Assembly (NCBI GenBank): GCA_026392825.1
Contig: JAPLBF010000022.1
Coordinates: 1-64,000 of the forward strand
Direction: 5' to 3'
DNA: 64,000 nt
Origin: Actinomycetota bacterium
GTDB lineage: Bacteria; Actinomycetota; Actinomycetes; Nanopelagicales; Nanopelagicaceae
Below are positions 3,153-27,730 of this stretch, one piece after another. The notes under the pieces are model-generated. The model was not told the DNA's origin and did not search any database. It saw nothing but the letters and a program-made list of their open reading frames with translations. The position numbers and the translations under genes were made by a program. Each line of letters starts with the position of its first letter. The stretch's first letter is position 1.

Positions 3153-3914
3153 ATGACAACACCTGAGAGCCCAAAGAGTTTTTCGCAAATTTCTAGATCA
3201 AACTCCCTTTTCATTCCTGCCTTAATCCTTGCTCTTGCAATAGGTGGCGGTCTTGTAAAAGTTGGAGCGGGCTTTGCCAGCCGTTCAGATAACGGAATTG
3301 TCGTTACTGGATCTGCGCGCACTGAAGCGGTTGCAGATAATGCTGTGTGGACTTTATCTGTCTCACTCTCTCGTCCAAGCGTCTCTGATGCGGTCACCAA
3401 AGTTGGAAATGATGTTGCAGCGGTAGCAAAATATCTAGCAGAGGGCGGAATTCCGGCTGAGGCGCTAACTCTTGGTCCAGTTTCTACTTACGGCCAAGAA
3501 GAATATCTAAACGGAAATTCAACTGGTCGCATTTTGAATTATCGCGCCAGTCGCGATGTCACAGTTCGCACCAAGGATGTTGAATTAGTTTCTAAACTTT
3601 CACAAGGTATTGGCTCAATTTTGCAATCGGGTGTTTCTGTAAATAACTATGGCCCTCAGTATTACATCTCCACTCTGGCAGAACTTCGCCCACAATTGCT
3701 CGAAGAAGCGATGAAAGATGCCAAGATCCGCGCAGAAGCAATCACCAAAGCAGTTGGCGGAAGCGTCGGAGCTGTAACAAGTGTCAAGAGCGGGGTTTTC
3801 CAAGTTACGACCCCTGATTCAACGATGACCTCGGATGGTGGCGCGTATGACACGACCACGATTAAGAAGACTGTTACCTCAACCGTTTCAGTTACCTTCA
3901 CCGTTAAGAACTAA
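3153..3914 (+). CDS. SIMPL domain-containing membrane-anchored protein
   Basis: A 253-residue protein with an N-terminal transmembrane anchor (about residues 18-40) and an exported SIMPL (DUF541) domain. The domain starts with the typical VVTGSAR strand and contains alternating strands, a conserved GIPAEALTLGPVSTY turn and the repeated 'IRAEAITKAVGG' helix near residues 190-203. The molecular role of SIMPL proteins is not settled; they are envelope proteins. The gene appears leaderless, with TAAGAT six bases before the ATG. It sits between DUF3145 and a cupin protein on the same strand. Confidence 0.8.
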   Translation: MTTPESPKSFSQISRSNSLFIPALILALAIGGGLVKVGAGFASRSDNGIVVTGSARTEAVADNAVWTLSVSLSRPSVSDAVTKVGNDVAAVAKYLAEGGIPAEALTLGPVSTYGQEEYLNGNSTGRILNYRASRDVTVRTKDVELVSKLSQGIGSILQSGVSVNNYGPQYYISTLAELRPQLLEEAMKDAKIRAEAITKAVGGSVGAVTSVKSGVFQVTTPDSTMTSDGGAYDTTTIKKTVTSTVSVTFTVKN

Positions 3915-15553: not shown

Positions 15554-18644
<3,091 letters not shown>

Positions 18645-23981: not shown

Positions 23982-24614
23982 ATGTCAGATGATCTGGCCA
24001 TGCAAATATCTACTGAAAAAATGCGCGACTGGTGGAGCAATATCACCTTCTCAATATCGCAAAAGCGATCACTACTTTCTATCTCAGCGCTGGTTATTGC
24101 GCTCTCTTTCTTTCTCGTGATGCGCGGTTCAACGCAGGAGATCCCACTGGCACCCGAAGGCTTATCCGTAACCGAAGCGGTCGCTCAAGTTACTGTCGAT
24201 GTAGCGGGTGCAGTTAAGAACCCAGGGGTTTACACCTTGCCAGCAAATTCGCGAGTTATGGATGCGATCAAGATGGCTGGAGATAAGTTAAAAGGCGCTG
24301 ATTTATCTGATGTGAATTTGGCGCGCATCATTAAAGATGGTGAACAAATCTATATTTATCCGCCAGGTAAAGCCGGTAGCACTAGTCGAATATCGCCACA
24401 ACGAGCCAAAGCCAAATCTTCTGGCCCGATCGCGCTAAATCGTGCGAGCGCAAAAGATTTGGAATCACTCGATGGAATCGGCCCAGTGTTGGCTGCGCGA
24501 ATAGTTGCTTATCGCAATCAGAATGGCCCCTTTCTTACCGTGGATGATCTGATGAAAGTTTCCGGAATCGGATCAATCAAATTTGCGCAATTTAAAGAGA
24601 AGCTACGCGTTTAA
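23982..24614 (+). CDS. comEA: ComEA-like DNA-binding competence protein
   Basis: A 210-residue membrane-anchored protein that in competent bacteria binds incoming double-stranded DNA. It has one transmembrane helix (about residues 26-44), an SLBB domain (VTVDVAGAVKNPGVYTL near 69-83), a basic linker and two C-terminal helix-hairpin-helix units (LNRASAKDLESLDGIGP and FLTVDDLMKVSGIG). The ATG at 23982 is the first in frame; an ATG at 24000 is possible. Its TAA overlaps the proposed ATT start of comEC. Confidence 0.92.
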   Translation: MSDDLAMQISTEKMRDWWSNITFSISQKRSLLSISALVIALSFFLVMRGSTQEIPLAPEGLSVTEAVAQVTVDVAGAVKNPGVYTLPANSRVMDAIKMAGDKLKGADLSDVNLARIIKDGEQIYIYPPGKAGSTSRISPQRAKAKSSGPIALNRASAKDLESLDGIGPVLAARIVAYRNQNGPFLTVDDLMKVSGIGSIKFAQFKEKLRV

Positions 24615-26776
24615 TTGATTACCGCGCACTTGCCTTAGGCGGTGCGCTTTGGTGTGGTGCGTTACTGCAGAGTTATGTAGCGCCGTGGCGAACCTCCCTC
24701 GCCGCGGCGCTACTTGTTCTTTTTGCCCTGTCGCAAAGACGTAACCGCTTTATCGTGCTCGCTTTTGCGCTGGCTCTTGGCTCATCGGTTATGTCCTTGC
24801 GCCAGCACAGTTTGCAATCAAGCATCGTTGCTCAACACTTTGATGAGAGCGCTATTGCCACACTCCAATTGAGTACCGATCCTCATCTGAGCGCAAAGCG
24901 GGTGAGTGGACGCAATTTTCTGCCTCCGAGTTACAGCGCGTTAGCCAGCTTGCGTGAGATCAGAATCGGGCAAAGTAGTTACAAACTACATATTCCGATC
25001 CGGTTCATCACGACAGATATCAAAGTTGCAGAATTACTACCCGGCCAGAAAATAAGAGCTGAGGTGCGCATTTTGCGCAGTAAAGAACCACGTGTTGCCG
25101 CGCTCTTGATTGCTAACCAGAAAGTGGAAGTTAAGAGCAAACCATCACGGTGGGCAAAGTCTCTCGGCAAAGTGCGCCTTGGCCTCCGAGCTGCAAGTGG
25201 TACTGGTGATGCTGGTTCGTTGATTCCCGGAATGGTTTTAGGTGACACATCCTTGCAAAGCGAGAACTTTCGCAGCGATATGCGTCGCTCTGGTCTAACT
25301 CATTTAGTTGCAGTAAGTGGGGCAAACTTTGCAATAGTTTCCGCCTTTATTTTATGGTGTGCACAATTTCTATTTAAAACTATGCGCATTCGCATCTTGG
25401 CCACAGCAATTGCACTAGTTGCATTTATCGCGCTAGTTCGCCCATCGCCATCAGTTCTGCGCGCTGCCGCAATGGCTGCAGTATTACTGATTGCCTATGC
25501 AACCAAGCGCGGAGCTGATTCTCTGCCAGCGCTAGGTTTTGCAATTGCCGCAGTCGTCATCGGTGATCCTTGGCAAGGTCGGGATCCAGGTTTTGCACTC
25601 TCTGTTTTGGCAACTGCGGGACTGCTTCTCTTTGCCCCGCGAGTAATCACTTATCTGGAACGTTATTTGCCGAAGATAATTGCTCAGGCAATTGCGCCAC
25701 CAATCGCAGCGATAGTTTTTTGCGCACCTATTATTGTTGCGATCGCAGGATATTTATCGCCGATGAGCATTCTTGCAAATCTCTTTGCTGCACCTGCCGT
25801 TGCGCCAATCACCATTGTTGGATTCATAGCCGCACTTTTATCCCCGTTTGCACCATCTTTGTCTGCGCTCTTAGTAACTCTGGTTAAACCGCTGGCTTGG
25901 TGGATTGCCAACGTTGCCGATTGGACGGCCGGATTTCGCGTACTGACAATAAGTAAAGGTCTATTGGGTTTTGTGGCTGTAATTGTCACGATCGCACTTA
26001 TCGTGCTTTTGCCGCGCAAAATTGTTATCGCCACCGTTCTGATCGCACTCTCTTTGAGTTACTTGCAACGATTTCCGGGAGGTGATTGGCAAGTAGCAAA
26101 CTGCGACATTGGGCAGGGCGATGGTGCTGCAATTAATCTAGGAAGCCATCGCGCAATTGTGATTGATACCGGCCCAGATCCAGAGTTAATTGATCGTTGC
26201 TTAAAACAGTTATCTATCCGTGAGATTCCGTTATTGATTTTGACGCACGGCCACGCAGACCACATTGCAGGATTATCCGGCGCAATAAGAAATCGCAAAG
26301 TGGGAGCCACTTGGTTTGGCAATGTTAAGCGCGGAGCTAGAGCGCAGTTTGGGAATACCAAAATCAAAGTTTTGTGGCCCGATAACGGGGAATACGATCC
26401 AAATAATTCAAGTATCGCAGTGCGCATTGATACTCCAGATTTCTCGCTCTTTGCTGGTGGGGATATGGAGCCGCAGACTCAAGCGGTTATCGCATCAGAA
26501 TTAACCAACGTTGATATTTATAAAGTCTGTCATCACGGGTCTGCATATCAAGATGAGAGTTTTACGCGCGCCTTGGATCCGCAAGTGGCGGTGATAAGCG
26601 TTGGCGCAGGCAATAGTTATGGCCATCCCGCCGCCAAGACCTTGACGCTATTGGCGCAGGTAGGCGCTAAAGTACTGCGTACAGACGTTGATGGGGCGAT
26701 TGCGATCGCAGCTCGCAGACATCGCCTAAAAATTAAGACCAGTAAAGGCAGTTTTAACTTTATTAGATGGGAGTAA
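24614..26776 (+). CDS. comEC: ComEC/Rec2-family DNA uptake channel
   Basis: A membrane channel with a competence domain and a C-terminal metallo-beta-lactamase-like domain that moves single-stranded DNA across the membrane. Seen: hydrophobic helices at the start, the ComEC core with LTHLVAVSGANFAIVSAF, many spans, then THGHADHIAG, GGDMEPQTQ and CHHGSAYQDES in the hydrolase part. The frame is open from 24596 but has no ATG, GTG or TTG before GTG 24755; starting there would remove 47 residues that form the usual first helices beginning D-Y-R. The ATT at 24614, overlapping the comEA stop (TAATT) and following AAAGAGAAG, would give a 720-residue protein with the expected N-terminus. GTG 24755 remains the conventional choice. 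Confidence 0.85.
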   Translation: MDYRALALGGALWCGALLQSYVAPWRTSLAAALLVLFALSQRRNRFIVLAFALALGSSVMSLRQHSLQSSIVAQHFDESAIATLQLSTDPHLSAKRVSGRNFLPPSYSALASLREIRIGQSSYKLHIPIRFITTDIKVAELLPGQKIRAEVRILRSKEPRVAALLIANQKVEVKSKPSRWAKSLGKVRLGLRAASGTGDAGSLIPGMVLGDTSLQSENFRSDMRRSGLTHLVAVSGANFAIVSAFILWCAQFLFKTMRIRILATAIALVAFIALVRPSPSVLRAAAMAAVLLIAYATKRGADSLPALGFAIAAVVIGDPWQGRDPGFALSVLATAGLLLFAPRVITYLERYLPKIIAQAIAPPIAAIVFCAPIIVAIAGYLSPMSILANLFAAPAVAPITIVGFIAALLSPFAPSLSALLVTLVKPLAWWIANVADWTAGFRVLTISKGLLGFVAVIVTIALIVLLPRKIVIATVLIALSLSYLQRFPGGDWQVANCDIGQGDGAAINLGSHRAIVIDTGPDPELIDRCLKQLSIREIPLLILTHGHADHIAGLSGAIRNRKVGATWFGNVKRGARAQFGNTKIKVLWPDNGEYDPNNSSIAVRIDTPDFSLFAGGDMEPQTQAVIASELTNVDIYKVCHHGSAYQDESFTRALDPQVAVISVGAGNSYGHPAAKTLTLLAQVGAKVLRTDVDGAIAIAARRHRLKIKTSKGSFNFIRWE

Positions 26777-26779
26777 GAC

Positions 26780-27730
26780 ATTAATCCGTTTTATCTCATC
26801 CTGGGTTCAGAGGCGGCACTTGCTGATCGAGCCTTAGCCAAGTTATCTGCGCAGTTAAAAGATGAGAGCGCTGAAATCACAACCATCTTCGCCGGCGATG
26901 CCTTACTTGGCGATATCTCTGATGCGCTGGCCCCTTCGCTATTTTCTGAACGTCGCGCGCTAATAATTAAAGATCTGCAAGATCTTCCGGAAGATTCCAA
27001 AGAAGAAGTCACCAGATATTTGAGTGAGCCAGATGGGCTAACGACCGTTGTTTTCATCCATAAAGGCGGCGTAAAAGGAAAAGCGTTGCTGGATGCAATC
27101 AAGAAAGTTAAACCAGAGATAATTGCCTGCGAGCCTCTGAAGAAAGAGGCGGAGAAAGAAGCATTTGTAAAAGAGTTGTTTTTAGATAGCGGGCGCAAGG
27201 CATCTCCTGGCGCAGTTGCTGCACTGGTCGGTGCACTCGGTGGAGATATGCGCGAATTGCAGCAAGCGGTTTCACAGATCGCACTTGATTCACCTGCTGG
27301 TGTAATTGATGAAGCAATGGTTGATAAATTCCACCAAGGCCGCGTTGAAACAACTGGCTTTGATGTTGCAGATGCAACAGTCGATGGAAATTTACCGGTC
27401 GCACTAATTTCTTTACGCAGTGCGATTGAAACGGGCACAGATCCCGTGATGGTTACTTCCGCCATTGCATCAGCGCTCCGTAGCCTTGCAAAAGTTTCTG
27501 GCTCTGCCAGTGGTGCAAAATCTTTCGAACTCGCCGGACAACTCGGAATGGCGCCGTGGCAAATAGATAAAGCCCGTCGCCAATTACAGGGCTGGACTCC
27601 GCGCGCACTTTCCAAGGCGGTGCAAGCGATTGCCCTTGCAGATGCGCAAGTAAAAGGTGCCGCCACAGATCCGATCTATGCCCTAGAAAAAGCCCTCGCC
27701 ACGATTACCGCTGCTCGCGCTGCCAGATAG
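26780..27730 (+). CDS. holA: DNA polymerase III delta subunit (HolA)
   Basis: The clamp-loader subunit that opens the beta sliding clamp. The frame encodes the expected N-terminal ATPase-like domain (FYLILGSEAALADRAL), RRALIIKDLQDLP, a TTVVFIHKGG strand and the C-terminal helical collar ending in AIALADAQVKGA. No ATG, GTG or TTG occurs in frame between the comEC stop and TTG 27020, which would delete 80 conserved residues. ATT at 26780 gives MNPFYLIL and has GGGAG six bases upstream, so it is the likely start of a normal 316-residue protein. comEA-comEC-holA is the standard actinobacterial order. Confidence 0.88.
   Translation: MNPFYLILGSEAALADRALAKLSAQLKDESAEITTIFAGDALLGDISDALAPSLFSERRALIIKDLQDLPEDSKEEVTRYLSEPDGLTTVVFIHKGGVKGKALLDAIKKVKPEIIACEPLKKEAEKEAFVKELFLDSGRKASPGAVAALVGALGGDMRELQQAVSQIALDSPAGVIDEAMVDKFHQGRVETTGFDVADATVDGNLPVALISLRSAIETGTDPVMVTSAIASALRSLAKVSGSASGAKSFELAGQLGMAPWQIDKARRQLQGWTPRALSKAVQAIALADAQVKGAATDPIYALEKALATITAARAAR

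Follow-up and report, generated by a model that had tools for sequence, protein, structure and literature searches.

A non-canonical start for comEC next to the comEA stop codon

In a 64,000-nucleotide stretch of a 1.38-Mb genome of the Candidatus Planktophila type (the window), sequence comparison indicates that comEC begins at a non-canonical codon beside the stop codon of comEA. Translation is probably achieved by rare termination-reinitiation at or beside an NUA codon that overlaps this stop, and output of ComEC would then be low. The gene order in this region is leuS, comEA, comEC, holA, rpsT, and lepA, where leuS, rpsT, and lepA were read from the open reading frame (ORF) list and comEA, comEC, and holA were confirmed with Pfam. 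Identification of comEC was based on its Competence and metallo-beta-lactamase-like domains and its location 3′ of comEA. The features referred to below are as follows.

23982..24614, forward strand: comEA, with SLBB and helix-hairpin-helix domains (ORF list; Pfam SLBB, HHH_3)
24594..24602, forward strand: AAAGAGAAG, a weak Shine-Dalgarno-like stretch within comEA codons, not conserved (pairing energy; junction comparison)
24611..26776, forward strand: comEC, intact (Pfam PF03772, Competence; PF00753, metallo-beta-lactamase-like)
24611..24613, forward strand: TTA, proposed start position of comEC, forming a TTAA overlap with the comEA stop in place of an ancestral NTGA (NTA in 115 of 140 family junctions; NTG(A) in outgroups)
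24612..24614, forward strand: TAA, stop codon of comEA (ORF list)
24614..24616, forward strand: ATT, codon 0, an earlier candidate for the comEC start, variable in relatives (junction comparison)
24617..24754, forward strand: conserved ComEC N-terminus (D-Y-R, hydrophobic segments), 5′ of the first canonical start (protein-level constraint; homologous D-[YFL]-R...W.G segment in outgroups)
24755..24757, forward strand: GTG, the earliest canonical start codon in the comEC frame, not conserved as a start (ORF list; junction comparison)
26780..27730, forward strand: holA (DNA polymerase III delta), with an apparent ATT start at 26780-26782 (Pfam; comparison with relatives; gap survey)

The comEC frame is open from position 24596 and contains no ATG, GTG, or TTG until GTG 24755. 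The 47 codons preceding this GTG read I-D-Y-R-A-L-A-L-G-G-A-L-W..., and AAAGAGAAG lies eleven bases 5′ of ATT 24614; the facts given in an earlier note made from the window sequence all hold.

The ComEC N-terminus is conserved as protein

A total of 65 distinct Planktophila-type junctions, complete genomes included, were compared. None carried ATG, GTG, or TTG at the site of ATT 24614, where ATG in relatives would have suggested a base error in the window. A base or sequencing error was rejected as the cause of the missing start, as the state is shared by many independent genomes, complete ones among them. After codon 0, the junctions read D-[YFSH]-R-A-...-W.GA.... Divergence across codons 1 to 24 was 0.28, 0.15, and 0.61 at the first, second, and third positions, respectively, which is the pattern of a constrained protein and suggests that these codons of comEC are translated. 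The corresponding values for codon 0 were 0.45, 0.43, and 0.46, about equal at the three positions. Since constraint is seen from codon 1 and none is visible on codon 0, translation of comEC appears to begin at or before codon 0. The earlier proposal of a genuine N-terminus upstream of GTG 24755 was thus confirmed by strong amino acid constraint across the 65 junctions.

The same alignment bears on whether comEC could instead start downstream, at the canonical GTG 24755 or at the well-conserved ATG 24791, leaving the upstream reading unused. An ATG is found at codon 59 (or aligned codon 57) in nearly all rows of the genus; however, Met 59 lies within a conserved motif, and the amino acid alone accounts for conservation of the codon. 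GTG 24755 is not conserved as a start, with the first in-frame canonical codon of relatives ranging from codon 3 to beyond codon 68. Codons 1 to 24 are also among the most constrained of the N-terminus and match the N-termini of outgroup ComEC proteins, making a downstream start very improbable. Even less credible is that comEC is decaying under relaxed constraint, with loss of the start being neutral. A weak start would reduce ComEC output, and a comEC match is missing from 14 of 151 family genomes, many of them incomplete. Against this, the comEC frame is intact in nearly all genomes, the ComEC domains are recognizable, and amino acid constraint persists across the genus.

ATT 24614 is probably not the start codon

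Codon 0 was ATT in 25 of the 65 junctions, GTT in 13, ACT in 6, ATC in 5, and ACC in 3, with GGC, GTC, AGG, and GTA found twice each and ACG, GGT, GCC, AAA, and AGT once each. Most members of genus g25 have no codon 0, and D-Y-R directly follows the NTA codon (ATA-GAT-TAT-CGA). The conserved ATT or near-cognate codon expected of ATT-start genes of the infC and pcnB type was not found at this site. Start at ATT 24614 through coupled initiation, with TAATT standing in for TAATG in this genome, would draw on AUU being a known weak start codon, the seventh best at ∼0.3% of AUG (Hecht et al. 2017, as cited in PMC10666635), and on ATT being the most frequent codon 0 and nearly constant within the subclade of the window. 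However, the wide variation of codon 0 at all three positions, its absence from most of g25, and the start of outgroup comEC one codon upstream of the ATT position make this route unlikely, and the naming of ATT 24614 as the comEC start is probably wrong. Of the earlier proposal, the non-canonical start next to the comEA stop stands, but conservation of ATT as the start codon is not supported. The Shine-Dalgarno-like AAAGAGAAG gave only weak pairing (−2.9 kcal/mol), and pairing of this kind was not conserved.

An NTA codon overlaps the comEA stop in most Nanopelagicaceae

The comparison was extended to 171 distinct comEA-comEC junctions, 142 of them from Nanopelagicaceae and the other 29 from families elsewhere in the class. 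Most outgroup comEA genes end in TGA, and comEC starts at an overlapping GTG or ATG (GTGA or ATGA); a canonical NTG lies within the overlap in 20 of the 29 rows, and in another 4 rows a canonical start follows one to four codons later. The comEA stop in Nanopelagicaceae is TAA or TAG in 125 of 142 junctions. Among the 140 family rows that entered a tree built on comEA and comEC, the overlap codon was NTA in 115, NTG in 11, and CTG in 4, and 10 were in another register. The comEC frame therefore enters at the stop-overlapping codon, in the −1 register, in 130 of 140 family junctions, as it does in NTGA-type overlaps, but the canonical ATG, GTG, or TTG of such overlaps has given way to NTA. With the stop changed to TAA or TAG and the register kept, what was an NTG codon now reads NTA. 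All four forms occur (GTA, CTA, ATA, and the TTA of the window at 24611-24613), distributed over 12 genera (g1, g25, g26, g27, g28, g30, g31, g32, g34, g38, g39, and g40), and GTG or TTG is retained in g33, g36, and a few members of g31 and g40.

On the comEA and comEC tree, which was made by a fast method and has long branches and a root that is not fixed, the NTA label required 6 changes compared with 45.8 when labels were shuffled, and a canonical codon at the overlap site required only 2 changes within the family clade. The comEA stop switched between TAA and TAG 22 times, and the first base of NTA changed 42 times. Most simply, the NTA state would have had a single early origin followed by few departures, two of them to GTG or TTG. 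Between NTA and D-[YFL]-R there may be nothing (g25), one free codon (g1), or several codons (e.g., VDQRVRSDYR in L115), and the sequences are unrelated. As both the length and sequence of the spacer are free, the position of NTA is the only feature in common. The comparative evidence thus points to TTA 24611, a likely remnant of an NTGA overlap, over ATT 24614. Given that TAA or TAG with a fixed register forces NTA, conservation of NTA alone is not proof of use, and the proposed start is placed at or immediately beside the overlapping NUA. A few NTA rows also carry a chance TTG or GTG within 14 codons, which counts against reinitiation at NUA. TGA stops were found in 1 of 63 comEA, 1 of 53 leuS, 12 of 69 comEC, and 12 of 54 holA genes; as leuS is equally poor in TGA, selection against reversion to TGA at comEA is unproven.

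Other arrangements were also seen at this junction. The comEA TGA stop of L117, L118, L144, and L232 is preceded by C, giving CTGA, and comEC would begin at a non-canonical CTG. In five g31 rows (L121, L122, L123, L216, and L217), comEC runs on in the +1 frame and has a new ATG within what used to be the first helix (MARRSK... and similar), and the old helix can still be read in the −1 frame (LALL..GLAIWLGAA) until a stop; this apparent re-founding of the comEC start would have cost the first helix. In L096 and L097 (g29) the overlap is solved differently: comEC occupies the +1 frame relative to comEA, and its ATG lies ∼38 bases ahead of the comEA stop.

The −1 register of comEC relative to comEA in nearly all family junctions could also reflect programmed −1 frameshifting or hopping near the comEA stop, which would yield a ComEA-ComEC fusion and remove the need for a comEC start. 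In L009 (G007:C1) the two genes are joined in one frame; however, this is due to an extra base, and the same comEC is split between frames elsewhere, making an assembly error likely in this indel-prone sequence. The slippery heptamer and stimulatory structure that define programmed −1 frameshift sites were not found at the family junctions: in-phase XXXYYYZ heptamers were present in just 3 of the 115 windows allowed, and folding gave no conserved structure (alifold energy of 0.00). In the subclade of the window, the −1 frame is open for just 3 to 5 codons before NTA, and sister lineages use separate canonical comEC starts. Frameshifting is accordingly given little credence.

Start codons elsewhere in the genome

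Start codons were surveyed in 460 kb, about one third of the genome, containing 371 predicted genes and 331 adjacent same-strand pairs. Pairs were sought in which the open frame of the second gene reached or crossed the upstream stop with no canonical start within 45 bases; this gap criterion was chosen because a version based on codon usage was too insensitive, with comEC itself ranking low. Seven of the 331 pairs were recovered, of which only comEC and holA look like genuine genes so placed. Ordinary overlaps in the sample were ATGA (35), GTGA (7), and TTGA (2), and a genome-wide loss of start fidelity was not seen in the 460 kb. An altered initiator tRNA was also considered and rejected, since three tRNAs with a CAU anticodon are present, one of them initiator-like.

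From ATT 26780, holA reads I-N-P-F-Y-L-I-L-G-S-E, in a frame that is open only from 26777, after the comEC stop. ATT is also found at this position in L032, whose comEC is ∼92% identical; the remaining close relatives carry GTG or TTG, and most of the more distant ones carry ATG at the same place. GGGAG lies upstream of the holA start in close relatives. On this comparison, holA appears to be a natural case of an ATT start in a core replication gene and would fit the idea of a rare ATT start, raised in the earlier note for comEC, better than comEC itself.

In L146 (G000:C30), infC on the minus strand appears to start at ATC (ATC ACA ACT GAA CCG CGC), as reported for Streptomyces, and gene finders limited to ATG, GTG, and TTG would cut ∼36 residues from IF3. 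Two further genes appeared split. A phosphoenolpyruvate carboxylase-like gene in L184 (G000:C11; 1332-4047) is divided by a frameshift near 3256-3284, through assembly error or decay, and a flavin oxidoreductase-like gene on the minus strand of L186 (G000:C18), near 15813-15891, lies in two overlapping frames.

Proposed reinitiation at a stop-overlapping NUA codon and its relation to known systems

The explanation that we consider probable is rare termination-reinitiation. After terminating at the comEA stop, ribosomes would on rare occasions reinitiate at the overlapping codon in the −1 frame. The change of the comEA stop from TGA to TAA or TAG in Nanopelagicaceae would have turned the start into NUA (UUA in the window), on which fMet-tRNA would pair at the middle base only (at the first and middle bases for AUA), or initiation would occur beside NUA, in either case without Shine-Dalgarno help. 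No Shine-Dalgarno-like pairing was found 5′ of the NTA starts (mean duplex energy of −0.71 compared with −1.97 kcal/mol in controls; none at or below −5), which speaks for a supply of ribosomes from comEA and against initiation independent of it. The level of ComEC would be far below that of ComEA, as might suit a DNA channel needed in few copies; the low output proposed in the earlier note would follow naturally, and initiation may be sensitive to IF3. NUA codons are, as far as is known, very poor start codons in E. coli, which weighs against this explanation. More tentatively, and with some doubt, post-termination ribosomes may reinitiate by position at an NUA whose first base is free to differ, with little regard to which codon it is. 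This state would have persisted from close to the base of the family, even though in many lineages TTG or GTG could be regained by a single A-to-G substitution in the comEA stop.

If reinitiation at NUA is correct, a conserved NUA start in at least 12 freshwater genera would mean that no recognized start codon is needed for reinitiation at an overlapping stop. It would also offer evolution an easy way of turning down the expression of a coupled gene, and gene finders restricted to ATG, GTG, and TTG would mis-start comEC across Nanopelagicaceae. Literature searches identified no paper combining Planktophila and comEC, and the phrase "UUA start codon" was not found for bacteria.

Several known systems share features with this junction. 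The AUU start of pcnB is non-canonical and thought to limit output, but it is one base from AUG and is used in stand-alone initiation. The same applies to the AUU and AUC starts of infC, which is also autoregulated (PMC5472188). One paper states that the non-AUG starts known from nature are all one base away from AUG, with GUA shown only for a recJ mutant (PMC6200909); the GTC start of Streptomyces sigR is an exception to this rule (PMC5472188). In NTGA overlaps with termination-reinitiation (PMC10666635), of which the outgroup comEA-comEC pairs are ordinary examples, position and register are the same as here, with the start formed by the last base of a sense codon and two bases of the stop. 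They differ in that the second base of the comEA stop is A in Nanopelagicaceae, so the overlap codon is NTA instead of ATG, GTG, or TTG. Like comEC, sigR is an actinobacterial gene with a phylogenetically conserved non-canonical start, in its case repressed through IF3 and holding output down, but sigR has a strong ribosome-binding site, its start does not overlap an upstream stop, and its codon is GTC rather than NTA (PMC5472188). Published work shows inefficient, IF3-sensitive reinitiation in the absence of a Shine-Dalgarno sequence (PMC2268962). A similar case is the E. coli recJ mutant with GUA in place of GUG (Haggerty and Lovett 1997, cited by PMC2268962 and PMC6200909), described there as a coupled gene with no Shine-Dalgarno sequence that can start weakly at GUA under IF3 control; that codon was a laboratory mutation, whereas the state of comEC is natural and conserved.
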